In this document: in pieces, positions 5,395 through 32,323 of the stretch | Layout of the letters: each line of letters opens with the position of its first letter | How positions within the stretch are numbered: position 1 is the stretch's first letter | Origin: an uncultured Bacteroidota bacterium | Lineage (GTDB): Bacteria > Bacteroidota > Bacteroidia > Chitinophagales > Saprospiraceae | Reading direction: 5' to 3' | DNA length: 35,894 bases | NCBI GenBank assembly: GCA_903836265.1 | Contig: CAILQK010000016.1 | Span: forward strand, 1 to 35,894 | Position numbers and translations under genes: made by a program | The notes under the pieces: generated by a model | What the model was told of the DNA's origin: nothing | Databases searched by the model: none | Seen by the model: the letters and a program-made list of their open reading frames with translations, nothing else

Positions 5395-6627
5395 TTATTC
5401 TTCGCCCTCAAATGCCTCAAAATCGAAAATAAGAGAGAAACGCAGGGTGTTGTCAAGCGGATTCCGCTGGTTGCTCGTAGGCACCAGATAGGAGAAGTTG
5501 AGTCCGAAGATATTGTATTTTACTCCAAGACCCACACTGAAATATTTTCGGTTTCCTTTGGAATAGTGCTCGTGGAAATATCCCATACGTACTGCAAACT
5601 GGTCGTCATACCAGTACTCGGCACCGGCACCAACGGTAATTTCCTTGAGTTCCTCGCTGAAACCTCCGGGAGCATCTCCGAATGACCGGAACACTCCGCG
5701 AACCGGTGACAGTTGCTTGTAATCGGGGAAACCATCTCCGTCATCATCAATTTCCGGGCGCGGAGTGGGCACAAGCAGTTTGTTGAAATCGGTAGTAAGG
5801 GTGATGGAGTTGTAATCGTCGAGACCAATTTTCAGTGCCGTACCCACACCGAGATTGGTGGGTATGTAGTCGCGGTTTACCGAATTGGTGTAGGTAATTT
5901 TGGAGCCCAGATTGCTGACTGCAGCACCGAAAGTGAAGTCGGATTTGTAGCGATTTATCTTGACCGGCTTGCGATACGTCATCGAGAAATCTGCAGCACC
6001 GGCAACCCCGGGACGAATTTCGTTTCCTTCGACAATCCGGCCCGTTGCCAGGTTGGAATAGATGAACTTGGCTCCGACTGCCGCAGACAGGTTGTCAGAC
6101 AACTTGCGCGCATATCCGGCACTGAATTCAAACTCATTGGGGCGTCCCTGTCCGAGCGATTCACCCTGTTCGTTGGTAAACTCAATATCGCCGAGCGAAA
6201 AGTAGCGCAGACTGGCACCGACGGCCTGACGGTCGTCGAGTCTGTAGTAACCTGAAAGATACGCAAGATATACGTCATTCAGACCCAGATTGCGCATCCA
6301 CGGTGTATAGGTTGCCGAGATTGACACATTCTTCGTGGCAAAGGCGAGCTTGGAAGGGTTATAGTGCATACCGTTGGGATCAGCAGAAGTTGCGATACCA
6401 ACATCGCCCATGGCACCACCGCGCGCGTCAGGCACAATGCGGAGGAAAGGAACAGCAGACGTTACAGCATTGGCACAACGCTCCCCTGTCGGGCTGGTCT
6501 GACCTGTTATGGGGTCGAAAGAGTAACCCTGCCCGTCCTGGCAACGGGCGAAAACCTGGGCTTCAGTATGTCCGGCGGACAAAACAAACGGCATCATCAA
6601 TAACAGCCGTACGATCAGTTTCTTCAT
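5395..6627 (-). CDS. porV: T9SS outer-membrane shuttle protein PorV (LptO family)
   Basis: 410 residues: a signal peptide (MKKLIVRLLLMMPFVLSAG, cut near AEAQ), then the family hallmark FLRIVPDARGGAMGDVG followed by a FadL-like 14-strand beta-barrel with many alternating aromatic strands. The last strand ends in SLIFDFEAFEGEE. In Porphyromonas and Flavobacterium PorV binds the C-terminal domain of cargo leaving the Sov translocon and carries it to the PorU sortase. A DDDGDGFPD acidic loop near residues 304-312 may bind calcium. It lies 137 nt downstream of porU on the same strand, the usual porU-porV order. TATTTTTG at 6758-6751 could give a weak internal promoter, but I see no -33 element. 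Confidence 0.95.
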   Translation of the reverse strand: MKKLIVRLLLMMPFVLSAGHTEAQVFARCQDGQGYSFDPITGQTSPTGERCANAVTSAVPFLRIVPDARGGAMGDVGIATSADPNGMHYNPSKLAFATKNVSISATYTPWMRNLGLNDVYLAYLSGYYRLDDRQAVGASLRYFSLGDIEFTNEQGESLGQGRPNEFEFSAGYARKLSDNLSAAVGAKFIYSNLATGRIVEGNEIRPGVAGAADFSMTYRKPVKINRYKSDFTFGAAVSNLGSKITYTNSVNRDYIPTNLGVGTALKIGLDDYNSITLTTDFNKLLVPTPRPEIDDDGDGFPDYKQLSPVRGVFRSFGDAPGGFSEELKEITVGAGAEYWYDDQFAVRMGYFHEHYSKGNRKYFSVGLGVKYNIFGLNFSYLVPTSNQRNPLDNTLRFSLIFDFEAFEGEE

Positions 6628-6764
6628 TTTTCAGTATTATTTTACTGTTAGCTGGTGATTACTCCATTTTTCTGGAGTGAAAGGATGCCCGCACTGCATC
6701 CAATACCATGCCATGACGCACTTCAGATGTAACTGGTTGTCCGGAACAGACAAAAATATATTCA

Positions 6765-9700
6765 TTATTTCAGAATAACCAGTTTTTCGAACTCGCTTTC
6801 AGCCGTAGTCTGATTACCTGAAGTATCCGTACCGCGGATTTTCACCCTGTAAAGGTAAACTCCCCTGGCCAGTTGGTCTCCATAATCATCCCTGCCGTCC
6901 CATTGTATATCGGCAACCCGATACCCGTCGGTATTTGCAACTGTCTGCTGTATGGTTTTGACCAGCCTTCCCGCAACAGAAAATATACTGATCTGCACGT
7001 CCAGCATTTGTCCGGCAAGCGTATGTTCAAACTGGAACCACGTATTGGTTGTAAATGGATTCGGATAGTTGAGTACATGGCCGAGTGCCACATCTCCGGC
7101 CTCCGCCACGACAAATTCAACATAGCCTTCTCCCGAATTGTTGGCTATATCCCAGCCCTTTACCGCCAGGGTATGCCTGCCGGGAGCCAGATTGTTCAGC
7201 GGATAAACAGCCTGTCCCCTGCGCGAATCATCGGGAGCACTCTGGTAAAACTCGTTCAGAACGATGGTTTCAAGCACGTTGCCATCCAGTACGGCTGTCA
7301 GGTCGTGCCCGAGACTGGTGCCTGTTACATTCATTCCGTAATCGTCTGAACATTTTACCAGCACTTTCGGCGAGCTGTCGGTTACCCCTCCCGTTACAAA
7401 GGCGTCTGTATTCAGAAATGCCTGTACCAGCGGCGGCCGGTTATCCTTGATGACTCCGGCATTACCGCCAATAATAACGGTTTCATCGGCACCTGCAGCA
7501 TCGAGGGGTGTACCATCTTCGGCGTAATAGCTTATTTTACCAAAGCCATAATTATAGTTGATATCCTTGGGTATTACGAAACTTATGGTGAATTCTCCGT
7601 TTTTCACCGTGGCAATTCCTCTGAAAATCACGCTCCGCTGTACCGTGAACTCTTTCCTGTAGCTTCCCTGATCCTGTGCCAGTGTCTGGAGATTCTGTTT
7701 TTTATCGAAAAGGGTAACGTACACACGCCCGTTGAAGTCGCTGAGCCGGTTGCCGTCAGGGTCAGTAACCATACCCTCCAGTGTTATCGGCATGAGGGCC
7801 TTCAGTGTATCTGCCGGACCATTCGGGCCGCTTATCCTGGTAGTGGCAATCCGGTTTTCAGGTATGGCCAGTGTCATGGCAGGATCGCCCAGCAGGGTGA
7901 AGCGCCGGGCATTCTGAATGTCGGAGGTCAGTTTGTTCTTGGAGTCTTTCAGTATGCGCCCGATTGTGCGGTACTGTCCGTTGATTTTCTCATAGATAAT
8001 GCTCTGTACAGCATCCGTGAGATCCTCGTTGCCGTTGATATAAACGGATCTGACCGTGGTAAAGAGTGCAATGGCTCCGGAATTGACCCGAAGGAGCGCC
8101 TGCTCTCCTCCGGTCAGAGTGGTGTAGTCGTCGTATCCGCCAAACGTGCAGGTAGCGGTAATGATGAGCGGATATCGGTTCCTGTTGTCCCAGCTGGCTA
8201 TGTCATTGTTATCCAGCACGCGCTCCTGCGACCACCCGCGCGGCCCCCCGTGACCAATGTAATGAGTAATCAGGTTACCCTTGAAAATATTGGAATTGAT
8301 GGCAGCCTTGGCATCCGGGAATCGCTGCCCGGCAGAGGTAGCCACCTGCTGGTAGGCATCGAAATAAACTTTCTCATTGTTAAAGAACTTGACCGCGCTG
8401 GTATTGTCGGTAGCCAGCTTGTCTGCCTGATTGATGTGTGCGTTCCCGTCTTCATCATCGGCAATAAACAGTACCCTCAACCTCCAGTCGCCCAGAAGAG
8501 CAGGATCCTGATCGTATGCAATTATCTTGTCGGTCAGTGCGTCCGCCTCTTCAGCGTTTCGCGCAACCAGCCTCCCCACCGATATATCCAGTGAGCCGGT
8601 GAGTGCCCCACCCTCTTCCGGACTGAGCAGTGCAAAAAAGTCGTCGGAGGGAAACGCATTGATGGGACTGAAAGACTCTGCTGTTTCAAACACGGGAATA
8701 TAGTCGTTGTTCCCGTCGCCGTTTGAGTTGTTCTTCGGATCGAAAGAACCATCGCCAAACAGCAGCATGTACTGAAACTTGTCGGGATCGCGCTCCAGCA
8801 GCATGCGCGCGAAATCGCGTATTGCAACAGGATCCTTCCCGCCCGACGAAAACTCGTTGAAAAGATCCAGTACATTCACTGCAGCTGCCGACAAGCCGCT
8901 GAAGTCTCTTCTGTGCGCGGCAAGGCGCTCGGCAGCTTTCTCTGTTTCCGGGTGATAAAGTATAACCATATCCAGTCCGCGCAAACCATGCAAATTCTGG
9001 TTGGCAATTTTCCCCGCTGAAAATTCGGGCTTCGGAAAAGATGCCCCGGCATTCCAGGCCACAAAACTGCGGAGAACTCCCTGTGTGGCAGCTCCAAAAG
9101 TGGCCAGATTGCCAGCCAGGGTGAACAGTTGCTTTTTGGGGGTCTGCGGAGCTGTGATATCCCATATGGTCAGATCAGCGCCCGCATTGGATATACGGAA
9201 CTGTGTGGCCGGCCGGCCGAGCGTTTTGACATCCCTGAACTCCAGTATATTGCCGCTCATCGCAAGTTTGCGACGTACGTTCAGCTCAATGTAGTCGAGC
9301 CAGCCCTCACTGGAACTGCCCACTTCAGGGTAGTTCACTACCACCTGCAACGGACTGCCAGCGGGCAGGAACGAACCTGTGACAACAGCGTTGGCAGCAA
9401 ATGGGCCATCGTTGTTGTCAGTATCAACACCTGCAATGGACTTGCTGAAAGTGGAACCCGACACCTGAAAACGCACGCTCTGGCTTACATTGCTGCGGCC
9501 GGCGAACTCCCCGCGCATGCGCGCAATACTGTCGGTAACAATATCCGGGAAGTCAAACGTGTAGGTCTTTGTGCGGCTCTGATAGAAATAGTCGCCGAAC
9601 CAGCGTTTACCCGACCCCTGCGAGGATGAATTGTAGTTAAGCAGGTTGGTCTTCTCTTCCTCCAGCCGGACGAAATCATCGAACTGATCGGTAGTGAAAG

Positions 9701-10607
9701 TGGCATCTGTTTCGGCCTGTTCTGAAATTCTGAGTCCGGATCCCTCACCCGTTTTCAGGAAATACCAGGCGCGTTCATCGTACAGATTGACCCGGCTGGT
9801 CAGCACCGGATCAGCAGCCGACGGCCTGTAAATCCATGGTCGTGGTCCGACCGCGTAAAACAGTATATAATCACCTGTATTGAATTTTCCATCGCTCTCA
9901 CCCACCACCAGTATCGCATTTTCCAGCAGATCGTCGGGACGGGCATCCACGTTTTTTTCGGGCAGCATAAAGCCGCCATTGCCATAGATACGTATCGTCC
10001 GCGGATCAATATTGTCAAGATCGGTTACCCCAAGCTCGTTTTTGATGTAGCTGTAGTCGAGCTTGTAGATCCCGGAGTTCTCCACACCAAACTTGTACAC
10101 ATTTCCGCTGCTCAGCACGGATGTCTCGGTGAACCCGCGCGTGGTGGCCGGAGCCTGAGCTGCCACCGGAGTGACACTGACAATAACAGTGAAGGAGACC
10201 AGCCGCTCGTACGTGTTGCCTGTTTTGCGAAAGGGCAGCATGTTGATACGGCCAAAGTACTGCCGGCGCTCCTGTTCTGTGGAAGTACTGACTGTCGCCC
10301 CGGGGCCAACAAGTGCCAGGTCGGGGTTATTCCCGGGTCTGAATACCTCCCAGTCAGCCTCCTGCAGCGATGCGGATATTTCAGACTGCCCGTCAAGCGC
10401 GAACCGCGCAGTGAACAGGGGCAGTGTCATCGCATCATTTCCATAGGTACAATCCTCAAATTTCCAGACGTCAACGGCGTTGCCATCCGGCGTTATCCAC
10501 TGACGGGGGGTATCGCTCCACTTCAAGCTCCGCTGAATGGTCAGGGTGCTCTGGGCCGAAACGGCAGAAGCACAAAGCAGTGACAGGATGAAAAGACTGT
10601 GTCTCAT
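6765..10607 (-). CDS. porU: T9SS sortase PorU (gingipain-like C25 peptidase)
   Basis: 1280 residues, somewhat longer than the Porphyromonas protein (about 1158). A signal peptide (MRHSLFILSLLCASAVSAQS) is followed by beta-rich N-terminal domains. The C25 peptidase domain (about 545-915) has catalytic H786 in YIGHGGP and C820 in TATCTFGGYDD, a spacing like that of PorU elsewhere. Ig-like domains follow, and then a T9SS C-terminal domain (about 1180-1280) beginning LNYPNPF and ending in a FlgD-like GVYLYRVKI strand and KLVILK. PorU cleaves the sorting domain from cargo and transfers cargo to anionic lipopolysaccharide on the cell surface. Upstream is a good promoter and downstream is porV. Confidence 0.96.
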   Translation of the reverse strand: MRHSLFILSLLCASAVSAQSTLTIQRSLKWSDTPRQWITPDGNAVDVWKFEDCTYGNDAMTLPLFTARFALDGQSEISASLQEADWEVFRPGNNPDLALVGPGATVSTSTEQERRQYFGRINMLPFRKTGNTYERLVSFTVIVSVTPVAAQAPATTRGFTETSVLSSGNVYKFGVENSGIYKLDYSYIKNELGVTDLDNIDPRTIRIYGNGGFMLPEKNVDARPDDLLENAILVVGESDGKFNTGDYILFYAVGPRPWIYRPSAADPVLTSRVNLYDERAWYFLKTGEGSGLRISEQAETDATFTTDQFDDFVRLEEEKTNLLNYNSSSQGSGKRWFGDYFYQSRTKTYTFDFPDIVTDSIARMRGEFAGRSNVSQSVRFQVSGSTFSKSIAGVDTDNNDGPFAANAVVTGSFLPAGSPLQVVVNYPEVGSSSEGWLDYIELNVRRKLAMSGNILEFRDVKTLGRPATQFRISNAGADLTIWDITAPQTPKKQLFTLAGNLATFGAATQGVLRSFVAWNAGASFPKPEFSAGKIANQNLHGLRGLDMVILYHPETEKAAERLAAHRRDFSGLSAAAVNVLDLFNEFSSGGKDPVAIRDFARMLLERDPDKFQYMLLFGDGSFDPKNNSNGDGNNDYIPVFETAESFSPINAFPSDDFFALLSPEEGGALTGSLDISVGRLVARNAEEADALTDKIIAYDQDPALLGDWRLRVLFIADDEDGNAHINQADKLATDNTSAVKFFNNEKVYFDAYQQVATSAGQRFPDAKAAINSNIFKGNLITHYIGHGGPRGWSQERVLDNNDIASWDNRNRYPLIITATCTFGGYDDYTTLTGGEQALLRVNSGAIALFTTVRSVYINGNEDLTDAVQSIIYEKINGQYRTIGRILKDSKNKLTSDIQNARRFTLLGDPAMTLAIPENRIATTRISGPNGPADTLKALMPITLEGMVTDPDGNRLSDFNGRVYVTLFDKKQNLQTLAQDQGSYRKEFTVQRSVIFRGIATVKNGEFTISFVIPKDINYNYGFGKISYYAEDGTPLDAAGADETVIIGGNAGVIKDNRPPLVQAFLNTDAFVTGGVTDSSPKVLVKCSDDYGMNVTGTSLGHDLTAVLDGNVLETIVLNEFYQSAPDDSRRGQAVYPLNNLAPGRHTLAVKGWDIANNSGEGYVEFVVAEAGDVALGHVLNYPNPFTTNTWFQFEHTLAGQMLDVQISIFSVAGRLVKTIQQTVANTDGYRVADIQWDGRDDYGDQLARGVYLYRVKIRGTDTSGNQTTAESEFEKLVILK

Positions 10608-24254: not shown

Positions 24255-24917
24255 ATGTCCTTTCGCCTACACCGCGAGGGCCACCTTATGCTGGCCATAT
24301 TCGCCCTGCTGCTCTCTCTGCTGAATTTCGCTGTTTACCAATACCTGCCTGTCGTATTTTGGCCGACTCTGGTGCTTTCTGCCGTATTTTATGGCATTAT
24401 CGTTCAATTTTTCCGCAACCCTGTACGGGTTATCCCCGTCACTGACAACGGCCTCGTGTACGCTCCCGCAGACGGGCGCGTATGCGTGATTGAAGAAGTA
24501 ACCGAAACCGAATACTTCAACGACAGGCGTCTGCAGGTATCTATTTTTATGTCGCCATTCAACGTACATGTGAACCGCAACCCTGTAAGCGGAATCGTCA
24601 GGTACTTCAAATACCACCCGGGCAAATATCTGGTTGCCTGGCATCCCAAGAGCAGCACAGAAAACGAACGCACCACCGTTGTCTATGACCTCGGTGGTGC
24701 GCAGATACTGATGCGCCAGATAGCGGGCGCACTGGCCAAACGAATTAAATGGTACGTCAGTGAAGGCCAGCAGGTGGAACAGGGCGCTGAAATGGGCTTC
24801 ATCAAATTCGGTTCCCGGGTAGATCTCTACCTGCCCCTCAACACCCACGTGGAAGTGCTCATGGACGAACAGGTAAAGGGAAACAAGACGGTGATTGCCC
24901 GCCTGGAACAAGCCTAG
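24255..24917 (+). CDS. psd: Phosphatidylserine decarboxylase proenzyme (short form)
   Basis: 220 residues from ATG at 24255; an in-frame TTG at 24204 exists but would overlap the likely promoter. N-terminal hydrophobic segments (about 13-50) anchor it in the inner membrane. Core motifs include APADGRV, FMSPFNVHVNRNP and KYLVAWHPKSSTENER. The self-cleavage site is FGSRVD, with S187 expected to become the pyruvoyl group. It makes phosphatidylethanolamine from phosphatidylserine. The length and the GS-R site fit the short archaeal/Bacteroidota type. Its TAG stop overlaps the TAG stop of the convergent DsrE-like gene in one CTAG palindrome. Confidence 0.94.
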   Translation: MSFRLHREGHLMLAIFALLLSLLNFAVYQYLPVVFWPTLVLSAVFYGIIVQFFRNPVRVIPVTDNGLVYAPADGRVCVIEEVTETEYFNDRRLQVSIFMSPFNVHVNRNPVSGIVRYFKYHPGKYLVAWHPKSSTENERTTVVYDLGGAQILMRQIAGALAKRIKWYVSEGQQVEQGAEMGFIKFGSRVDLYLPLNTHVEVLMDEQVKGNKTVIARLEQA

Positions 24918-25336
24918 AAACCTGCCTTGATGTAGGCCCAGTTGTCTTTCTGCTTCAGAATGATTTCTACCAGTCCGGCAGGAACGGTACGGATATCATC
25001 AACCAGATCCTCTTTTTTGATTTTGCGCTCGCGCAGGGTATTCTCGCAGGCAACAAAATCTATGCCTTTGGCGGCCAGTTCACTGATGCCGGCCGACTGT
25101 TTTGTCACGGCCGATTGCAGGAAAGATATGCCATTGTTGTGGCACACCACCTCTGCCCGTACATTGGGAGCCGCCGTCAGCAGGTTGTTTAACTGCTTCA
25201 CTAATGCCTTGTGAACCAGCGTGTCGCTGGAGGTGAGCTGAAAAACTACTTTCAGTTTCTCTTCGGTCATCACCTGGGAAGAAGCGCTGAATGAGATGAA
25301 CAGTCCAAGCAGGATAAAAAGGTGTCGCATATTCAT
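24914..25336 (-). CDS. Exported DsrE/DsrF-like sulfur-carrier family protein
   Basis: 140 residues. A signal peptide (MRHLFILLGLFISFSASSQ) directs it out of the cytoplasm; most DsrE proteins are cytoplasmic. The DsrE-like alpha/beta fold follows, with KVVFQLTSSD as first strand, AEVVCHNNGISFL (C65) and a conserved-type cysteine in GIDFVACENTLRERKI (C97), the position where DsrE-family proteins carry sulfur. The last gene of the nine-gene sulfur operon, it overlaps the preceding small membrane-protein gene by ATGA, suggesting coupled translation. A second ATG two codons later (25330) is an equally good start. Role as periplasmic persulfide carrier is inference. Confidence 0.82.
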   Translation of the reverse strand: MNMRHLFILLGLFISFSASSQVMTEEKLKVVFQLTSSDTLVHKALVKQLNNLLTAAPNVRAEVVCHNNGISFLQSAVTKQSAGISELAAKGIDFVACENTLRERKIKKEDLVDDIRTVPAGLVEIILKQKDNWAYIKAGF

Positions 25337-25578
25337 GGTGTTTTAATTTTTTTGAAAATTTCAACGGCGATAAGCCTCAACAGGAGCAGCCATGGCGTTC
25401 CGTGCAGGAACAAGTCGAACCAGTCGAGCGGTTGCATCCCTACAGCACCACCAGCCACCCAGCGTAACTTTCCGAGTATATGAGGCTCGGGAGTGAATGG
25501 TGCCAGTCCCATCGTAGCACAGGCTATGGTGATGGTCCCCCAGTCGTTCAGTATTCTTTTTACCGGATTAACGGACAT
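25333..25578 (-). CDS. Small integral membrane protein of the sulfur operon
   Basis: 81 residues from ATG at 25578. A GTG at 25614 would add 12 residues but would overlap the SoxB-like gene's end. Two hydrophobic segments (about 12-28 and 57-75) flank a conserved-looking middle, LAPFTPEPHILGKLRWVAGG and MQPLDWFDLFLHGTPWLLLL. I know similar short proteins beside DsrE and SoxB-like genes in Bacteroidota, sometimes labelled RND transporter without good reason; no function is established. Its TGA overlaps the ATG of the DsrE-like gene (25336-25333). It might anchor or receive the exported DsrE-like protein. Confidence 0.75.
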   Translation of the reverse strand: MSVNPVKRILNDWGTITIACATMGLAPFTPEPHILGKLRWVAGGAVGMQPLDWFDLFLHGTPWLLLLRLIAVEIFKKIKTP

Positions 25579-25591
25579 GATATGATGAGCT

Positions 25592-27301
25592 TTATCTGAA
25601 TTGATAGGGAACACCGGTTACCTGCGTGAGCAGGGTCGCAGGTGCATCAAGTGCTTTGGCATGACCCTGTGGAACCGGATTAACCGGAGAATGGGCTGCA
25701 AGATATTCCTTCATCATCTGGTGAAGCGTATAATTCTGGGTCACTCCGTCAGTCACCTTCGGAATTCTGCAAAGCATGGTAGGTGGATCGCCGTCGCGTT
25801 CGCAGGCCGCCAGAGAATAAATACGCGATGGCTCGAGGGGGTTTCCCCCCACAAGTACGCTTTTTACTCTTTGACCCGGCTCTCCGAATGCATTAAATGT
25901 CACTTCCATACCCTTGAACTTGACAAGCCAGCCGCCGAAACGTTTGGATGCATCTTTGGCAAAGACATTGTTCAACTCCTTTTCCAGCCATTTCACAATT
26001 TCTTCCCCGCTCGCCCTGGCCGTTCTGATATTTGAATCAACCGGCAACATGTCATAAAGGTACGACTCTGTGATCGGAATATTGCCGGTATGATCAGGTG
26101 TACTGCGTGGCGGACAGAACCTGAAACCATTTGAAAGCACTATTTCTTGTCCCGTTTTCCAGGCCAGCGCATCAAGAATCATGGTATCAATGGTGTTTTC
26201 AACCACAAAATATCTGTACAATGGAGTTTTACTGTAACCAATTACCCGTTCAATATCGGGCTTGAAAGGCGCCTCCAGCTCCTTGATCATGGCTGAAATT
26301 TCCCTGTCGGGCTTGACAGCAGTAGAACTTACTTCCAGCAGCTCGTACCGCTCTCCGATGATTTTGCCATTCTCCACGGTCAGATCAAGTCGGCCGATAA
26401 AAGAACCGAATGCTCCCGGCTCAACCACTTTGGCGTACCTGCACTGTATGGGTTCGCGCACGCGCTCGTGCGTATCTCCTCCAAATATGTAATTAACACC
26501 TTCACATTCGGGCATATTGGCCAGTGCAATCTGCTGCGACAGGCCCAGGTGCGACAGGATGATGATAAAATCACACTGTTCCTGCTCCTTCAGCACACCA
26601 ACATAATATTTCAGATTTTCTTCCGGCTTTGTATAGATAATCCCTTTGGAATAGTTGGGCGACTGCCTCAATGGTACCAACGGGTCGGTATATCCCAGGA
26701 ATCCGATCTTGACGCCCAGTCTGGACCATACCTGATACGGCTGGAATACCAGCTCCCCTTTCTTCCCGTCGCCGGCATCGTGGTACATATTGGCACAAAC
26801 TTTGGGTGCCTGCAATCCACCCAGGAGTTTCTGCATATTCTCCTTGTAGTAAACAACTTCCCAGTTTCCGGGGGTGTAGAGGTCGTATCCCAGACTATCG
26901 AGTATGGGAACCATAGCCTTGCCGGTAGTTTTGATAGACAATTCACTACCCTGAAACATATCGCCGGTATCAACAATATATGTATTCGGATTTTCTTTCC
27001 TTATTTTTCTGAAAAGAGAGGCAATGTATGCATATCCGGCTGTTTTTCTGAAAACGGCCTGGTTATTTTCCCAGAAAAGTTCATCATGAGGGTGTATCTG
27101 GCAGTGAACGTCGGTGGTTTGGAGTAACGTGAGAACGCCTTTGTCAGGCGAACCGGACACTCCCCCGACCGCATACTCGTCTGTATTGTCTGGATCTACC
27201 TGTTTGCTGTCCGAGGCGTTGAGGGCAATAGGAGCAACACCTGCGCCCAGGCCTGCCAGCAGGCTGTTTCGCAGGAACTTTCGCCTGTTTGAATTTTTCA
27301 T
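25592..27301 (-). CDS. Tat-exported SoxB-like metallophosphoesterase/5'-nucleotidase
   Basis: 569 residues, the usual SoxB length. The N-terminus has a twin-arginine signal (NRRKFLRN then a hydrophobic stretch). The metallophosphoesterase domain (about 55-320) carries metal ligands D64 and H66 in TTDVHCQIHP, D114 in VDTGDMFQGS, N146 in GNWEVVY, H251 in ILSHLG and H278 in GGDTHE. The 5'-nucleotidase C-terminal domain (about 345-540) follows. GNWE and the whole-chain pattern resemble SoxB, which hydrolyses cysteine S-sulfonate on SoxYZ to release sulfate with two Mn ions. A nucleotidase role is the main alternative; the operon favours sulfur. The ATG is 27 nt after the cytochrome stop. Confidence 0.8.
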   Translation of the reverse strand: MKNSNRRKFLRNSLLAGLGAGVAPIALNASDSKQVDPDNTDEYAVGGVSGSPDKGVLTLLQTTDVHCQIHPHDELFWENNQAVFRKTAGYAYIASLFRKIRKENPNTYIVDTGDMFQGSELSIKTTGKAMVPILDSLGYDLYTPGNWEVVYYKENMQKLLGGLQAPKVCANMYHDAGDGKKGELVFQPYQVWSRLGVKIGFLGYTDPLVPLRQSPNYSKGIIYTKPEENLKYYVGVLKEQEQCDFIIILSHLGLSQQIALANMPECEGVNYIFGGDTHERVREPIQCRYAKVVEPGAFGSFIGRLDLTVENGKIIGERYELLEVSSTAVKPDREISAMIKELEAPFKPDIERVIGYSKTPLYRYFVVENTIDTMILDALAWKTGQEIVLSNGFRFCPPRSTPDHTGNIPITESYLYDMLPVDSNIRTARASGEEIVKWLEKELNNVFAKDASKRFGGWLVKFKGMEVTFNAFGEPGQRVKSVLVGGNPLEPSRIYSLAACERDGDPPTMLCRIPKVTDGVTQNYTLHQMMKEYLAAHSPVNPVPQGHAKALDAPATLLTQVTGVPYQFR

Positions 27302-27328
27302 GGAAAATAAGTTGAAGTTTCTGGAGTG

Positions 27329-28471
27329 CTATTTCTTCTTGTAGAATGCTGCAACAGGCTTGAATGGCCCGTATTTGTGTTGCGCTTCAGGAAATGAATC
27401 CCGGTAAGGCCCGAACGGATGATCGTAAGGCTTTTTACTGATATCGGGCCAGTCTGTAGCCAGAAACGGATGCTCCGGTCTTGGCTGTGAGTTGATAAAC
27501 GCTGCTACATCCCAGGCTTCCTCATCGGTAAGTTGAGGATTATCGAAGGTAGCACCGAACGGCATATTGGCTTTTACATAACCAGCCAGTCGCGACAGCC
27601 TGAACAGACCAGCACCCTGGTTGTAGCTTTTGTCGCCCCAAAGCGGCGGATATGCCCGCGCTCCGTCGGGAGGTATGGGCAACCCCTGTCCGTCTGAACC
27701 GTGACAAGACGCACATTTGCCCACATACACTTCCCGACCAAGCTCCGGACTCGCCGGACGATCCAGCAAAGGAACCTCCACCAGCCCCGTTCCCCGGGGT
27801 TTGGCATCTTTGGGCACTCCAGTCCCAAGCCACTGCATGTAGGTAACAATAGCCCTCATCTCCCGGCTGGTGCTGTCGAGCGGCTGTCCATTCAGACTGC
27901 GCTGGAAGCAGTCATTAATGCGCTTCGGAATTGTTTCGAGCGAACCGGAACGGGCCCTCTGCTGCGGATAGGTACTGGCCACCGCGAAGTAGTTGTTTCC
28001 GAACGGACGGCTGCCCGCGTCGAGGTGGCAGCTCTGACAATTGAGTCCGTTGATGGCGTTAGGCCTGACCAGCCCCGAGGGACCGAAATAGTCCTGCGTG
28101 TGGGCAATCAGATCCCGGCCATAGGCGATAAGGTCAGCTTCACTGTCGGTCTCTGCCAGTGAAATATCCGGGGCTTTCCATATTTTTTCGGGACTGTACG
28201 AGGGCCAGACCGATTCACGGGCAGACCTGATCACCCTGTTACGTTCACTCAGCAACTGACTGACGGTCGCAATTGACACCACTACCAACAGTAAAATCCC
28301 GAACCAAAGGCTTTTCCGTAACCAGTTCAGTTGTAAAATCTGGCGCTTCAGCAACTCGTTTGATCTCAGAACAGCTGTATAACCGTCCAGATTACTGTTC
28401 ATGACGATCAGGCCAGCTACAATACCGGCAAGAGCCAGCCAGACAACCGGGTAAACATAGAGGGAATCCAT
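27329..28471 (-). CDS. tsdA: Membrane-anchored dihaem cytochrome c, TsdA-like thiosulfate dehydrogenase
   Basis: 380 residues. Two N-terminal membrane helices (about 5-25 and 54-73) anchor it, with the haem domains on the periplasmic side. Haem 1 site is CQSCH (145-149), followed by the TsdA hallmark RINDCFQRSLNGQPL in which C188 is the expected axial cysteine ligand. Haem 2 site is CASCH (253-257) with M303 in ANMPFG as probable ligand. TsdA joins two thiosulfates into tetrathionate, or runs the reverse. Known TsdA proteins are usually soluble and shorter, so the two-helix anchor suggests direct coupling to the membrane electron chain. The C-terminal tail after 330 is extended and lysine-rich. 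It starts 5 nt after the rhodanese stop. Confidence 0.82.
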   Translation of the reverse strand: MDSLYVYPVVWLALAGIVAGLIVMNSNLDGYTAVLRSNELLKRQILQLNWLRKSLWFGILLLVVVSIATVSQLLSERNRVIRSARESVWPSYSPEKIWKAPDISLAETDSEADLIAYGRDLIAHTQDYFGPSGLVRPNAINGLNCQSCHLDAGSRPFGNNYFAVASTYPQQRARSGSLETIPKRINDCFQRSLNGQPLDSTSREMRAIVTYMQWLGTGVPKDAKPRGTGLVEVPLLDRPASPELGREVYVGKCASCHGSDGQGLPIPPDGARAYPPLWGDKSYNQGAGLFRLSRLAGYVKANMPFGATFDNPQLTDEEAWDVAAFINSQPRPEHPFLATDWPDISKKPYDHPFGPYRDSFPEAQHKYGPFKPVAAFYKKK

Positions 28472-28476
28472 AATTC

Positions 28477-28866
28477 CTACTGAACGGTCTTTTTGCCCCT
28501 GGACTTCCAGTCGTTCATGCCACCCGAATAGTCATAGACTTTGGAAAAACCCATTTTACTCATTTTGGCAGCGGCCTGCGGACTGCGACCGCCGGCGGCG
28601 CAGTAAACAACTACCGGTTTGCTCTTGTCGAGCCGGGCGATCTGCGCGTCAAAATCCTGCGAATAGAAATTGATGGCACGGGCACCCTGGATCATACCTG
28701 TTCGGTTGATTTCCTCCGGGGTACGAAGATCAATCAGTTGTACAGTGGCATCTTTTTTGAGCATGGCCTCTGTCTGATCGGCTGTCAGGGTTGATTGTGC
28801 ATTGCCGGTACAGGCAGTACCGCTCAGAAGAATGAGCGAAAAAATGGAAAAAATCAGTTTTTTCAT
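28477..28866 (-). CDS. Exported single-domain rhodanese
   Basis: 129 residues. A signal peptide with a possible lipobox-like cysteine (LLSGTACTG, C19; the match is weak) is followed by one rhodanese domain (about 28-125) with LIDLRTPEE and the active-site loop YCAAGGRS, C89. It should accept a sulfane sulfur as persulfide in the periplasm. It lies between the YeeE/YedE pair and the cytochrome in the sulfur operon. A small palindrome (TCAGGG/CCCTGA, 28883-28899) precedes it, without clear function. Confidence 0.9.
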   Translation of the reverse strand: MKKLIFSIFSLILLSGTACTGNAQSTLTADQTEAMLKKDATVQLIDLRTPEEINRTGMIQGARAINFYSQDFDAQIARLDKSKPVVVYCAAGGRSPQAAAKMSKMGFSKVYDYSGGMNDWKSRGKKTVQ

Positions 28867-28931
28867 GATTATGTGTCATTTTTCAGGGGAGGGCCCTGAT
28901 TGATTGAAATATTCGTCGGTCTGCAGAGTTT

Positions 28932-29441
28932 TCAGTGTGGCAGCTTTTCTCTGAAATATCCATACACCCAGGTACCCGCCAGTGCGCTCATGAAGGTAAT
29001 CAGTATGACCAGTCCACCTGTACCAACCTGGGCAAAAATGGGGCCCGGACAGGCGCCTGTGAGAGCCCAGCCAAAACCGAATAGCAGCCCGCCGTAAATT
29101 TGTCCGCGACTGAAACTCTTGGACTGGAATGTTACGGGTTCCCCGTATATGGTTTTTATTCTGAGCCTTTTTACCAGTGCGACTGATATCATACCAATGA
29201 TCACAGCCGTACCAATGATACCATACATGTGGAACGACTGGAAACGGAACATTTCCTGGATGCGGTACCACGACACGATTTCAGCCTTTACCAGTACAAT
29301 TCCGAACAGGATACCCACCACTGAATACTTGAAATTATACCACCATGGGTGTGAGAGTTCTGACTCGTTCACGCACATGGTATCCACAGAACGAATTTCA
29401 TGGTCAGAGGGGCGAAACCGGGGAGTCAGCTTTTCAGACAT
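28932..29441 (-). CDS. YeeE/YedE (DUF6691-type) sulfur transport half-protein, second copy
   Basis: 169 residues from ATG at 29441. The open frame extends 48 codons upstream to 29585 into the preceding YeeE gene, but that part is a shadow. An N-terminal cytoplasmic stretch of about 35 residues precedes four membrane helices (about 38-55, 70-92, 114-130, 138-160). The conserved FGWALTGACPGP carries C131, the type of cysteine that handles thiosulfate or sulfane sulfur in YeeE/TsuA. It starts 14 nt after the first half, and together the two make one YeeE-sized transporter. Confidence 0.85.
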   Translation of the reverse strand: MSEKLTPRFRPSDHEIRSVDTMCVNESELSHPWWYNFKYSVVGILFGIVLVKAEIVSWYRIQEMFRFQSFHMYGIIGTAVIIGMISVALVKRLRIKTIYGEPVTFQSKSFSRGQIYGGLLFGFGWALTGACPGPIFAQVGTGGLVILITFMSALAGTWVYGYFREKLPH

Positions 29442-29455
29442 ACGACAGTTCTTTT

Positions 29456-30016
29456 TCAGAGTGAAAGAATGAAGGGGAGCATAAGGTGGGTCATGGCAAA
29501 GCCACCCGCCATAAAAGCAATTGTTGCGATCAGCGATGGCCACTGCAGGTTCGAGAGTCCCATGATGGAATGTCCGCTGGTACAACCACCGGCATAACGG
29601 GTTCCGAAACCAACCAGAAATCCGCCGATGACAATCATGATAAATCCGCGGAGTGTCAGAATGCTGTCGAAACTGAATAAATCAGTCGGAAGCAGACCCT
29701 GAGGCTGCCCCACCCCATAAGCAGCCAGATCATTTACCAGCTCGGGATGTACCTGAACCGGATCGCCGGCGTGAAGAAATGAAGCTGCAATTATACCGCC
29801 CGCCAGAATACCTCCGATAAAGAAAAAGTTCCATATTTCCTTTTTCCAGTCGTACCTGAAAAAACTGATATTGGCCGGGAAGCACGCAGCACAGATATGG
29901 CGAAGATTGGATGAAACACCGAAGTGCTTGTTTCCCAGAATCAGCAAAGTTGGTACCAGCAGACCGATGATAGTACCGGCAACCCACCAGGGCCAGGGTT
30001 TTGACAGAAGTTCCAT
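29456..30016 (-). CDS. YeeE/YedE sulfur transport half-protein, first copy
   Basis: 186 residues with about five membrane helices. It shows a CAAC pair (C42, C45) in SSNLRHICAACFP and the family signature YAGGCTSGHSIMGL with C145 and H149. YeeE/TsuA-type proteins import thiosulfate or related sulfur through a relay of cysteines. The gene starts 38 nt after the dioxygenase-rhodanese fusion and is directly followed by the second half-protein. Confidence 0.88.
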   Translation of the reverse strand: MELLSKPWPWWVAGTIIGLLVPTLLILGNKHFGVSSNLRHICAACFPANISFFRYDWKKEIWNFFFIGGILAGGIIAASFLHAGDPVQVHPELVNDLAAYGVGQPQGLLPTDLFSFDSILTLRGFIMIVIGGFLVGFGTRYAGGCTSGHSIMGLSNLQWPSLIATIAFMAGGFAMTHLMLPFILSL

Positions 30017-30054
30017 TGTTCGTTTCAGAAATAATGGTTAAATAATCCCAATGA

Positions 30055-31473
30055 TTACAGTAACGTCGTTGGACAAACGTAATTGGTCAGTTCAAACCTG
30101 CCTGAGTCCTTCAGGCCCTTGAACCCCTCCCTGACATCTATGAGGTTATCGTACCCGCGTGCGCGCAGGATACTTGCAAATATCATGGAGCGATAGCCAC
30201 CTGCACAATGGATATATACAGTCTTGTCACGTGGTATTTCCAGCATGGATTCGTTCACGCTGTCCAGCGGTGCATTGGTGGCATTGACGAAGTGCTCGCT
30301 GAGGTATTCACTGGTCTTGCGCACGTCAAATACGCTCGTATCAGACTGATTTTCAATTATTTCAGCCAGTTCAGCCACGGAAACCCGCTGAATCTGGTCT
30401 GTCTCCATTCCTGCTGCTTTCCAGGCTTCAATTCCGCCATCGAGGTAACCGAGGCAGTAGTCGTAACCGACCCGGGCAAGCCTGGTGACGGTTTCCTGCT
30501 CGCGACCCGGATCGGTTACCAGCAGGATTTCCTGCTTCAGATCCGGAACAAGTGCACCGACCCACGGAGCAAAACTGCCGTCAATACCAATGTTGATGGA
30601 GTTGGGAACGAACCCTTTCGAGAAGGCTTCTGCGTTTCTGGTATCCAGGATGAGGGCACCGGTTTCGTTGGCTGCAGCCTCGAAAGCACGTGGAGACAAT
30701 GCTTTTGTACCTCTCTCCAGCACGGTATCAATACTGTCGTAGCCGTGCTTGTTCAGGGCCACGTTCAGCGGGAAATAGGCAGGGGGTGGCATCAGACCAT
30801 TCGTTACTTCTTTGACAAACTCCTCTTTGGTCATGTCGGCACGGAGTGCATAGTTGACAGCTTTCTGGTGGCCCAGCGAGTCGTATGTTTCCTTCGACAT
30901 ATTTTTTCCGCAGGCAGATCCTGCTCCGTGGGCAGGATACACCGTCACATCATCGGGGAGTGTCATTACCTTGTTCCGGAGTGAGTCGAACAGATATCCT
31001 GCCAGCTGCTCCTGTGTAAGGCTGGCAGCCTTTTGTGCCAGATCCGGACGGCCAACATCTCCTATAAAAAGTGTATCACCCGAAAAGAGGGCTTTTTCGC
31101 TGCCACTTTCATCAAGCAAAAGATAGCAGGTGCTTTCCATTGTGTGGCCAGGGGTGTGCAGCACCCTGAATGTCAGCTTGCCTACTTTGAACTCCTCGCC
31201 GTCTTTGGCAATATACGCATCAAACGATGGGGTGGCAAGTGGTCCATAGACAATTGGTGCCCCTGTTTTTTTGCTCAGATCAAGGTGACCGCTCACAAAA
31301 TCAGCGTGAAAGTGTGTTTCAAATACGTATTTGATACGGGCCCCATCCCGGGAAGCCCTCTCCAGATACGCATTCACTTCGCGGAGCGGATCAATTACCA
31401 CTGCCTCACCTTCGCTTTCGATATAGTAAGCGCCCTGAGCAAGGCAACCGGTGTAAATTTGTTCAAGTTTCAT
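30055..31473 (-). CDS. Persulfide dioxygenase fused to two rhodanese domains
   Basis: 472 residues from ATG at 31473; a TTG three codons upstream is less likely. The metallo-beta-lactamase domain (about 1-235) has THFHADFVSGH (H54, H56, D58), HTPGHT (H110), SGDTLFIGDVGRPDL (D133) and YPAHG (H182). H54, H110 and D133 match the single-iron site of ETHE1-type persulfide dioxygenases. Rhodanese 1 (about 255-355) has lost its cysteine (VTDPGREQ). Rhodanese 2 (about 365-465) keeps it in YIHCAGGYRS (C423). There is no signal peptide, so it is cytoplasmic. It oxidises glutathione-type persulfide to sulfite. The order in the operon, next to TauE, fits sulfite export. Confidence 0.92.
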   Translation of the reverse strand: MKLEQIYTGCLAQGAYYIESEGEAVVIDPLREVNAYLERASRDGARIKYVFETHFHADFVSGHLDLSKKTGAPIVYGPLATPSFDAYIAKDGEEFKVGKLTFRVLHTPGHTMESTCYLLLDESGSEKALFSGDTLFIGDVGRPDLAQKAASLTQEQLAGYLFDSLRNKVMTLPDDVTVYPAHGAGSACGKNMSKETYDSLGHQKAVNYALRADMTKEEFVKEVTNGLMPPPAYFPLNVALNKHGYDSIDTVLERGTKALSPRAFEAAANETGALILDTRNAEAFSKGFVPNSINIGIDGSFAPWVGALVPDLKQEILLVTDPGREQETVTRLARVGYDYCLGYLDGGIEAWKAAGMETDQIQRVSVAELAEIIENQSDTSVFDVRKTSEYLSEHFVNATNAPLDSVNESMLEIPRDKTVYIHCAGGYRSMIFASILRARGYDNLIDVREGFKGLKDSGRFELTNYVCPTTLL

Positions 31474-31522
31474 GTGTGACAAAGGTTTTGTTTCAAGTGA
31501 CTACCTCCCGGTAGCTGTCAGT

Positions 31523-32323
31523 TTATTTCATCAGGAATTCTTTGGCAATAATATAAGCTCCCATTACCAGGACAAACCATCCGAATCCCTTCTTCAGTTT
31601 GCTTCCGTCAACGAGCCGACTGAGCCAATTTCCCACAAATATACCTGAAATTGCGAGCAATGTTACCTCTCCCAAAAATAACCAGTCTATGGAATGATGC
31701 CCCAGATCACCTGTAAACCCAAACAGTGATTTGGCGGCAATGATCAGAAGGGATGTACCTATTGCCTGTTTCATGGGAAGTTTGCTGAAAAGAACCAGCG
31801 CGGGAATAATCAGGAATCCGCCGCCTGCACCCACCAGGCCGGTCAGTACGCCGACCAGTATGCCCTCGATAAATATCATCGGAATATTATATGAACGCGG
31901 TCCGGATTCATCCTGTTCAGTACTGCCTTCCTTGTCCCGGATCATGGAATAAGAAGCAAACAGCATCAGGATGGCAAAGAGACCCATAAGCAGGGCAGGT
32001 TTCGTCAGGATGAAACTGCCCCGGGAAAAAACAGTGGCCGGTATGGCAGGTACTATCCAGGCTCTCGTGGCATACACAGCTGCAATAGATGGTATTCCGA
32101 AAACAATCGCTGTTTTTATATCTACCAGTCCGTCGCGATACTTGGACCATACACCAGCCAGACTGGTTGCACCTACAATAAACAGTGAATAGGCTGTTGC
32201 CAGTACAGGATCTACTCCGAAGAGATAGACCAGCACAGGAACAGTCAGAATGCTCCCCCCTCCGCCAATAAGGCCAAGGGATATCCCTATAAGTACAGAA
32301 GCTAGAAAACCTGATATCATCAT
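31523..32323 (-). CDS. TauE/SafE-family sulfite/anion exporter
   Basis: 266 residues with about eight membrane helices in two inverted halves, each beginning with the family's glycine-rich turn: LGLIGGGGSILTVP (about 17-30) and LTGLVGAGGGFLIIP (about 161-175). TauE/SafE proteins export sulfite, sulfoacetate or related anions. As first gene of the sulfur operon, placed before persulfide dioxygenase, it probably removes sulfite made in the cytoplasm. Two adjacent ATGs (32323, 32320) are possible starts. A weak -7 box and a Crp/Fnr-like palindrome lie upstream. Confidence 0.9.
   Translation of the reverse strand: MMISGFLASVLIGISLGLIGGGGSILTVPVLVYLFGVDPVLATAYSLFIVGATSLAGVWSKYRDGLVDIKTAIVFGIPSIAAVYATRAWIVPAIPATVFSRGSFILTKPALLMGLFAILMLFASYSMIRDKEGSTEQDESGPRSYNIPMIFIEGILVGVLTGLVGAGGGFLIIPALVLFSKLPMKQAIGTSLLIIAAKSLFGFTGDLGHHSIDWLFLGEVTLLAISGIFVGNWLSRLVDGSKLKKGFGWFVLVMGAYIIAKEFLMK

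Follow-up and report, generated by a model that had tools for sequence, protein, structure and literature searches.

The deep-sea bacterium Erythrobacter flavus 21-3 oxidizes thiosulfate with a genome reported to lack the Sox complex, SQR, FCSD and reverse Dsr (PMC7608252). Deletion of either tsdA or soxB in this strain almost stopped the formation of sulfur globules and sdoB acts on zero-valent sulfur; the published proposal is that TsdA produces tetrathionate, SoxB yields sulfate and sulfur, and Sdo forms sulfite (PMC7608252). A tsdA mutant supplied with tetrathionate still formed sulfur (PMC9426585). The tsdA and soxB pair has been reported from Bacteroidetes too (PMC7608252), and a sediment survey recovered 21 metagenome-assembled genomes (MAGs) with soxB as their only sox gene, eight of which also had tsdA (PMC12345210). 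Here we describe a nine-gene cluster in a 35,894-nucleotide stretch of DNA (the window; contig CAILQK010000016.1, C16 in our numbering) from an uncultured Bacteroidota bacterium of the family Saprospiraceae, whose genome assembly has 4.33 Mb in 462 contigs and is 94.6% complete. The cluster probably encodes a SoxYZ-free, two-compartment thiosulfate oxidation pathway of the TsdA-SoxB-sulfur dioxygenase type.

The open reading frames (ORFs) of the cluster all lie on the minus strand, from 32323 down to 24914 of the window, in the order tauE, persulfide dioxygenase (PDO)-rhodanese, PmpA, PmpB, exported rhodanese, tsdA, soxB-like, small membrane protein and exported dsrE (Table 1). The gaps between them are 49, 38, 14, 65, 5, 27 and 13 nt, and the last junction is a 4-nt ATGA overlap. 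The first-pass annotation, made from the letters of the window alone, had described nine same-strand genes with gaps of up to 65 nt and one such overlap, and the ORFs, Pfam matches and coordinates bear this out. We revised the likely start codons of the PDO (ATG at 31473), PmpB (29441) and the small membrane protein (25578, giving 81 rather than 93 amino acids). The gene-order comparison across Bacteroidota that it had proposed found the cluster to be common in the phylum. The row of nine genes is not a chance arrangement, because a Saprospiraceae MAG (L031) with a 90% identical SoxB-like protein, the nearest among the matches listed, keeps the identical genes in identical order and another relative (L034) keeps all nine in the window order with one additional gene. 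Promoter-like sites (8 versus 8.2 in shuffled sequences) and terminator-like sites (10 versus 7.9 +/- 3.3) were not in excess.

The gene content, its conservation, the absence of SoxY, SoxZ and SoxA matches over cut-off and a SoxB-type active-site motif are observed. From them we infer the reactions of the proposed pathway, their direction, location and order. From the periplasmic side of the inner membrane, to which it is anchored, TsdA would join two thiosulfate molecules into tetrathionate and pass the electrons on. The SoxB-like hydrolase would then remove the terminal sulfone of tetrathionate, or of a derived thiosulfonate, as sulfate and leave the sulfane sulfur, which the exported DsrE and rhodanese may hold or relay. 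PmpA and PmpB would act together as one YeeE-type importer, the PDO-rhodanese would oxidize the imported sulfur with O2 to sulfite in the cytoplasm, and TauE would move the sulfite out of the cell. Action of the SoxB-like enzyme on a free polythionate is plausible because SoxB is reported to hydrolyze the free small molecule trithionate (PMC5336275).

Sox genes and the SoxB-like hydrolase

We searched 296 Bacteroidota genomes, an even draw of one phylum whose members are relatives and not independent. The draw was taken to be the same across the SoxB-like, SoxY, TsdA, DsrE and PmpA searches, for which the unmatched genomes were partly listed. The SoxB-like clade of the window was present, at a minimum identity of 44%, in 14 of these genomes, including the window's own. 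Searches with curated cut-offs for SoxY, SoxZ and SoxA, which did not extend to SoxX and SoxD, found none of the three in the window genome. Profile searches of the 14 clade genomes were likewise negative over cut-off for SoxY (0/14, versus 34 of the 296 genomes overall, 32 of them in family f17 and two in family f15), SoxZ (0/14, with 5/5 controls recovered) and SoxA (0/14, with 4/5 controls). Ten clade genomes had SoxA matches below the cut-off, which we did not count as SoxA because all of them fall within TsdA matches. PF00174, the sulfite-oxidase family to which SoxC broadly belongs, gave no match in the window genome; 3 of the 14 carry a member. When Rhodobacter SoxY and SoxZ were used as tblastn queries on 101 loci, among them the 80 named loci described below, the sole match was the Indioceanicola locus, which is a full Sox cluster. 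The first-pass annotation had proposed two-compartment sulfur oxidation without SoxYZ or SoxXA, to be tested against a complete soxXAYZB elsewhere in the genome. Its SoxYZ and SoxA parts stand over the cut-offs used, and no complete set emerged from a search that left SoxX aside.

Among proteins in the PDB, the SoxB-like hydrolase is closest by sequence to Thermus SoxB (2wdc, 1.4e-28); the top-scoring nucleotidase, 3ivd, follows at 8.4e-21. It scores 250.4 bits on the SoxB equivalog model TIGR04486, below the NCBI cut-off of 550 bits. We aligned 40 proteins comprising four nucleotidases, 14 SoxB proteins accompanied by SoxY, 15 members of the window clade and seven of a further SoxB-like clade. 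The active-site motif reads GNHE or GNHD in all four nucleotidases, two of which (L024 and L029) were assigned by this motif itself and the others by annotation. The His of GNHE is catalytic in nucleotidases. The equivalent motif is GHWE or SHWE in the SoxY-accompanied SoxB proteins (14/14), GNWE in the window clade (15/15) and [GAV]HW[ED] in the further clade (7/7). Trp147 of GNWE is invariant in separate alignments of 14 and 53 sequences. Hence, the window protein has the Trp that replaces the nucleotidase His in canonical SoxB.

The spacing between the DxH and GD motifs separates the groups further. It is 46 residues in the window protein, 46–48 in all 22 SoxB-like proteins, 88–90 in the 14 SoxY-accompanied SoxB proteins and 39–61 in the four nucleotidases. 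The SoxB-like protein is, therefore, without an insert of about 43 residues found in canonical SoxB. The missing insert is a sequence marker that tracks the lack of SoxY in the 36 SoxB and SoxB-like proteins compared, with SoxY presence established by profile search for 12 canonical proteins, by annotation for L126 and by tblastn for L128, and SoxY absence established genome-wide for 10 insert-free proteins and within the fetched stretch for 12. Our guess is that the insert serves SoxYZ binding. A tree of the alignment resolved the four groups, each set off from the rest by a branch supported at 97/95 or better, and placed the window protein in its own clade, grouped with SoxB-like proteins and apart from the four nucleotidases; the root is unsure because the nucleotidase branches are long. 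The fold does not decide between the two families because an AF2 model (pLDDT 84.4) gave nearly equal TMq values to SoxB (0.77–0.79) and to nucleotidases (up to 0.75).

These data bear on a reading in which PmpAB, the PDO, TauE and the rhodanese form an island for sulfane-sulfur detoxification, next to a periplasmic 5'-nucleotidase-like phosphatase unrelated to sulfur. The similarity of the folds would allow it, as would the frequency of PmpA, which occurs without the SoxB-like clade in a sample where 122 of 296 genomes carry it. We nevertheless consider it very unlikely, given that the motif is GNWE rather than GNHE, that the protein groups in the tree away from the nucleotidases, and that soxB-like adjoins tsdA in 38 and dsrE in 26 of the 80 named loci, with strands agreeing in 59/59 and 41/41 cases, respectively. 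The nucleotidase identity that the first-pass annotation had named as a risk we reject in view of motif, tree and gene context; the fold by itself would not have decided the matter.

The TsdA-like cytochrome, the sulfane-sulfur genes and their distribution

The diheme cytochrome matches the thiosulfate dehydrogenase 4wqc in the PDB by sequence (1.3e-43). It has two CxxCH heme sites (CQSCH, 145–149, and CASCH, 253–257), Cys188 at the ligand position of heme 1 and Asn302-Met303 at heme 2. The Cys, His, Asn and Met residues of these sites are 100% conserved in the 57–60 aligned rows with a residue at the position. Campylobacter jejuni TsdA, a tetrathionate reductase in vivo, also has Asn-Met at heme 2, where the Allochromatium enzyme has Lys-Met (PMC5146829). 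This likeness, which extends to all 60 aligned rows, raises the prospect that the TsdA of the cluster works as a tetrathionate reductase. Thiosulfate would then go to PmpAB and the cytosol, the SoxB-like enzyme would trim polythionates, and the cluster as a whole would serve tetrathionate use. However, exchanging the Asn for Lys in C. jejuni TsdA did not produce a thiosulfate oxidizer (PMC5146829), so the heme-2 Asn alone is not direction-setting. An O2-using PDO and a putative sulfite exporter also appear to fit oxidation better. We regard the reductive reading as unlikely, though both directions could operate, and favor thiosulfate oxidation.

In the PDO, His57, His59, Asp61, His113 and Cys426 are kept in all 44–45 relatives with a residue at the position. 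Cys426 lies in the second rhodanese domain; the first domain has no conserved Cys by eye, and no signal peptide was seen by eye. PmpA and PmpB are two short YeeE halves with the expected conserved cysteine in each: Cys145 of the PmpA motif GGCTSGH (41/41 relatives) and Cys131 of the PmpB motif GACPGP (37/37). PmpA has a second invariant cysteine, Cys42 (42/42). In published alignments, PmpA and PmpB each correspond to one half of YeeE, and a heterodimer equal to YeeE was proposed for them (PMC11582611). The same genome encodes a second PmpA-type protein, 66% identical, on another contig (C33:8943-9491). The exported rhodanese keeps Cys89 in 98% of 51 relatives and is a weaker carrier candidate than DsrE. 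YeeE import, PDO oxidation and sulfite export by TauE, as suggested in the first-pass annotation, are the natural reading of these gene families. Signal peptides and membrane anchors throughout the cluster were assigned by eye, without a predictor.

Table 1. Genes of the cluster in window coordinates, listed in the direction of transcription
Gene product	Position	Strand	Family match or motif
TauE/SafE-family exporter, 266 aa, presumed sulfite exporter; first gene of the cluster	31523..32323	-	Pfam PF01925, 156 bits, 1.6e-45
Predicted persulfide/sulfur dioxygenase (PDO), metallo-beta-lactamase and two rhodanese domains	30055..31473	-	Pfam
PmpA-type half YeeE, C-terminal half, 186 aa	29456..30016	-	PF04143 profile positions 258-309
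PmpB-type half YeeE, N-terminal half, DUF6691, 169 aa	28932..29441	-	PF20398 and PF04143 positions 10-104
Exported single-domain rhodanese, possibly a lipoprotein (signal by eye)	28477..28866	-	PF00581, 74.5 bits, 1e-20
TsdA-like diheme cytochrome c, N-terminal membrane anchor (by eye)	27329..28471	-	SoxA/TsdA and cytochrome c Pfam
SoxB-like dimetal hydrolase, twin-arginine start RRKFL (by eye)	25592..27301	-	Metallophos and 5_nucleotid_C; GNWE motif
Small membrane protein, 81 aa	25333..25578	-	PEPHxxGK...DWFD...HG motif; no Pfam or NCBIfam match
Exported DsrE-like protein, 140 aa (signal by eye)	24914..25336	-	PF02635, 1.7e-7

A contig scan confirmed at least 561 relatives of the SoxB-like protein, the best 80 of which were kept as named loci, a set that is hence biased to close relatives. 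They come from Saprospiraceae, Flavobacterium, Chitinophagaceae, Emticicia, Raineya and others. In the 37 loci that have flanks of 9 kb or more on each side, the following were found anywhere in the locus: TsdA (31), PmpA (27), PmpB (25), PDO (23), DsrE (23), rhodanese (21), an OprD-like porin (21), a Crp-type regulator (17) and TauE (15). TsdA is present in 11 of the 14 clade genomes versus 23 of the 282 others (Fisher p 2.6e-9, with kinship not corrected). The TsdA search scored at most 6 candidates per genome, and one clade genome entered as lacking TsdA (G068) has the end of a TsdA visible, making it the twelfth. We also identified, in a locus where soxB-like is far from tsdA (L142:7735-8751), another cytochrome c gene (338 aa, PF00034) directly upstream of soxB-like, which may be an alternative electron-transfer partner.

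Several observations weigh against the proposed thiosulfate oxidation pathway. The two key genes are not always together: soxB-like is 79 kb from tsdA in one clade genome (G111) and on a different contig in two others (G076 and G194), and TsdA was not found among the candidates scored in G269 and G103. Thirteen of the 80 named loci, some on short contigs, have none of seven partner families. The wide occurrence of PmpA suggests that the importer, the PDO and TauE may form a general sulfane-sulfur module. The Asn-Met at heme 2 of TsdA matches that of a tetrathionate reductase, so TsdA may work in either direction. Finally, the enzyme activities of the cluster proteins are predictions, and the SoxB-like protein is a candidate ortholog of E. 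flavus SoxB.

Exported DsrE as a candidate carrier

The first-pass annotation had also inferred that an exported DsrE-like or rhodanese protein replaces SoxYZ as the sulfur carrier. A need for such a replacement is not supported, because the TsdA-SoxB-Sdo route of E. flavus was published without a Sox complex (PMC7608252). The DsrE-like protein of the cluster is nonetheless a concrete candidate. Like SoxYZ-type carriers, it appears by eye to be exported and has an invariant cysteine (Cys97, in 42/42 relatives; a second, Cys65, is present in 57%). It does not have the fold of SoxY or SoxZ. Its predicted structure (pLDDT 90.9) has a DsrE fold, with MTH1491 (PDB 1l1s) as the nearest solved fold.

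DsrE-like genes occur in 20 of the 296 genomes, 17 of which have TsdA and eight the SoxB-like clade. Ten of the 14 clade genomes encode an exported DsrE, in nine of them next to soxB-like or tsdA or no more than about 2 kb from one of the two. In the tenth (G292) it is 224 kb from soxB-like. Four clade genomes (G190, G111, G076 and G194) have no DsrE beside either gene; they encode PF02635 proteins at other places, which may or may not be exported. In the two genomes where TsdA was not found (G269 and G103), a diverged exported DsrE with the cysteine is encoded directly upstream of soxB-like, although the G103 protein scores below the Pfam cut-off. Two candidate roles fare poorly against these data: an obligate co-located carrier is ruled out, as 5 of the 14 genomes have no DsrE beside soxB-like or tsdA, and a DsrE belonging only to tsdA is doubtful in view of G269 and G103. 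In two loci from genomes in which no TsdA was found (L143:8510-10678 and L144:9442-11528), a diverged, exported DsrE is followed directly by soxB-like and then by a gene for a TlpA-like thioredoxin (by eye).

Ten genomes have TsdA and DsrE without the SoxB-like clade, and we fetched 19-kb regions from eight of them (L132–L139). In all eight, dsrE either adjoins tsdA or is separated from it by a single gene (the dsrE of L135 was placed by tblastn rather than by the ORF caller), and neither type of SoxB was found within the 19 kb. Partnership with an exported DsrE may, thus, be general for TsdA in Bacteroidota. An uncharacterized gene of about 230 amino acids with a twin-arginine-like start separates tsdA and dsrE in L134 and L138; a similar gene is on the opposite strand in L135.

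Could TsdA and DsrE do the work of SoxAX and SoxYZ? In such a scheme, tetrathionate would react with Cys97 to form DsrE-S-S-SO3, the SoxB-like enzyme would hydrolyze sulfate off the protein-bound thiosulfonate, and the DsrE persulfide would pass its sulfur to the rhodanese and on to PmpAB. The export signal, the invariant Cys97 and the DsrE fold are consistent with this role, as are the co-occurrence of DsrE with TsdA, its position near tsdA in every fetched region and its place upstream of soxB-like in G269 and G103. Precedents exist in other systems. The archaeal DsrE3A of Metallosphaera cuprina acquires thiosulfonate from tetrathionate (PMC4175335). Tetrathionate also loads SoxYZ in vitro, and Thermus SoxB in isolation reportedly did not turn over its substrates (PMC5336275). 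On the other hand, the genomes with no DsrE beside either gene, and the one with DsrE far from soxB-like, argue against a stand-in for SoxYZ, and the tsdA-dsrE pairs without SoxB suggest that the main partner of DsrE may be TsdA. The reported activity of SoxB on free trithionate and the E. flavus route, which was proposed without a carrier, also count against it.

The DsrE3A of M. cuprina shares with the window protein the DsrE fold and a cysteine able, in DsrE3A, to take thiosulfate from tetrathionate; it has two reactive cysteines and a TusA partner and is presumably cytoplasmic (PMC4175335), whereas the window DsrE is exported and MTH1491-like and has one invariant cysteine. A Sulfolobus relative of DsrE3A (3mc3) is only a distant match to the window protein (16% identity). 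A carrier loaded by the product of TsdA is, thus, chemically reasonable and possible, but unproven and not universal. We hold the replacement of SoxYZ by DsrE as a tentative alternative with the odds against it. More tentative still is the broader idea that a second Sox-like carrier chemistry evolved in Bacteroidota, with TsdA, a single-cysteine exported DsrE and an insert-free SoxB replacing SoxAX and SoxYZ. The SoxYZ-free thiosulfate oxidation pathway proposed above accommodates DsrE as a protein that may hold or relay sulfane sulfur.

Genomic setting, spread and comparison with known systems

The small membrane protein between soxB-like and dsrE is conserved: its ORF cluster has nine members including the window's, and tblastn matched it in 15 of the 80 named loci. 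On the upstream side, the gene for a MoxR-type ATPase, in the same orientation, stops 172 nt short of tauE; on the downstream side, dsrE shares its last 4 nt with a convergent gene for phosphatidylserine decarboxylase. Elsewhere in the window (5395-10607), a gene for a PorV-family protein adjoins one for a 1280-aa C25 (gingipain-family) peptidase; both are likely parts of a type IX secretion system.

Copies of the cluster are plasmid-borne in Runella slithyformis, Runella rosea and Pontibacter akesuensis. A Hymenobacter plasmid has much the same gene set with a SoxB-like protein of the further clade. These sulfur oxidation clusters (L121, L122, L125 and L130) point to horizontal spread. On a Novosphingobium plasmid, a SoxB-like protein of this further clade is encoded with YeeE halves, TauE, a metallo-beta-lactamase hydrolase and DsrE; no c-type cytochrome is present in its annotation table. 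The OprD-like outer-membrane porin is a frequent extra gene (L034, L070, L084, L121 and others) that is missing from the window cluster. It is possibly the outer-membrane entry for thiosulfate or tetrathionate; its name comes from the annotation of a Runella plasmid, and Pfam gave no family for a representative.

The Erythrobacter evidence for a SoxB-family enzyme that works without SoxYZ consists of knock-outs (PMC7608252). To the question of how such an enzyme works, the SoxB-like clade brings many genomes, named cultured hosts, plasmid-borne copies and, in DsrE, a specific carrier candidate. The clade further suggests that thiosulfate or tetrathionate may be oxidized by Bacteroidota of, for example, fresh water and soil that surveys based on soxYZ or high-scoring soxB would miss. 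Among the matches listed from a mostly open-access literature, we found no earlier report of this cluster in Bacteroidota, or of TsdA accompanied by an exported DsrE, apart from the E. flavus papers, studies of YeeE/SoxT and metagenome surveys. The SoxB-like enzyme, distinct and widespread, may be new, as may the candidate replacement carrier; the pathway logic is already known from E. flavus.

Compared with the canonical Sox system (SoxXAYZB(CD)), the cluster has in common a Tat-type SoxB-family hydrolase with Trp in place of the nucleotidase His and a Cys-ligated cytochrome of the SoxA/TsdA type. It differs in the window genome's lack of SoxY, SoxZ and SoxA over cut-off and in a SoxB-like protein that falls below the equivalog cut-off and is without the insert. 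The YeeE halves resemble the published PmpA and PmpB in being short, in the expected cysteines and in their proposed role in sulfur import, but the published proteins have about 130 amino acids, fewer than either window protein, and the window PmpA has the extra Cys42 (PMC11582611). The SoxT1 and SoxT2 importers, in contrast, are full-length and lie beside sox genes (PMC11582611). Set against the TsdA-SoxB-SdoA/B system of E. flavus (PMC7608252; PMC9426585), the window belongs to another phylum and its SoxB-like protein to a clade of its own. The window cluster also includes PmpAB, TauE, the exported rhodanese and the exported DsrE, which the E. flavus cluster may or may not have. What the two systems share is the core of the pathway: a TsdA, a SoxB-family hydrolase and a metallo-beta-lactamase-rhodanese dioxygenase are encoded together, without a Sox complex in E. 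flavus and without SoxY, SoxZ or SoxA over cut-off in the window genome.

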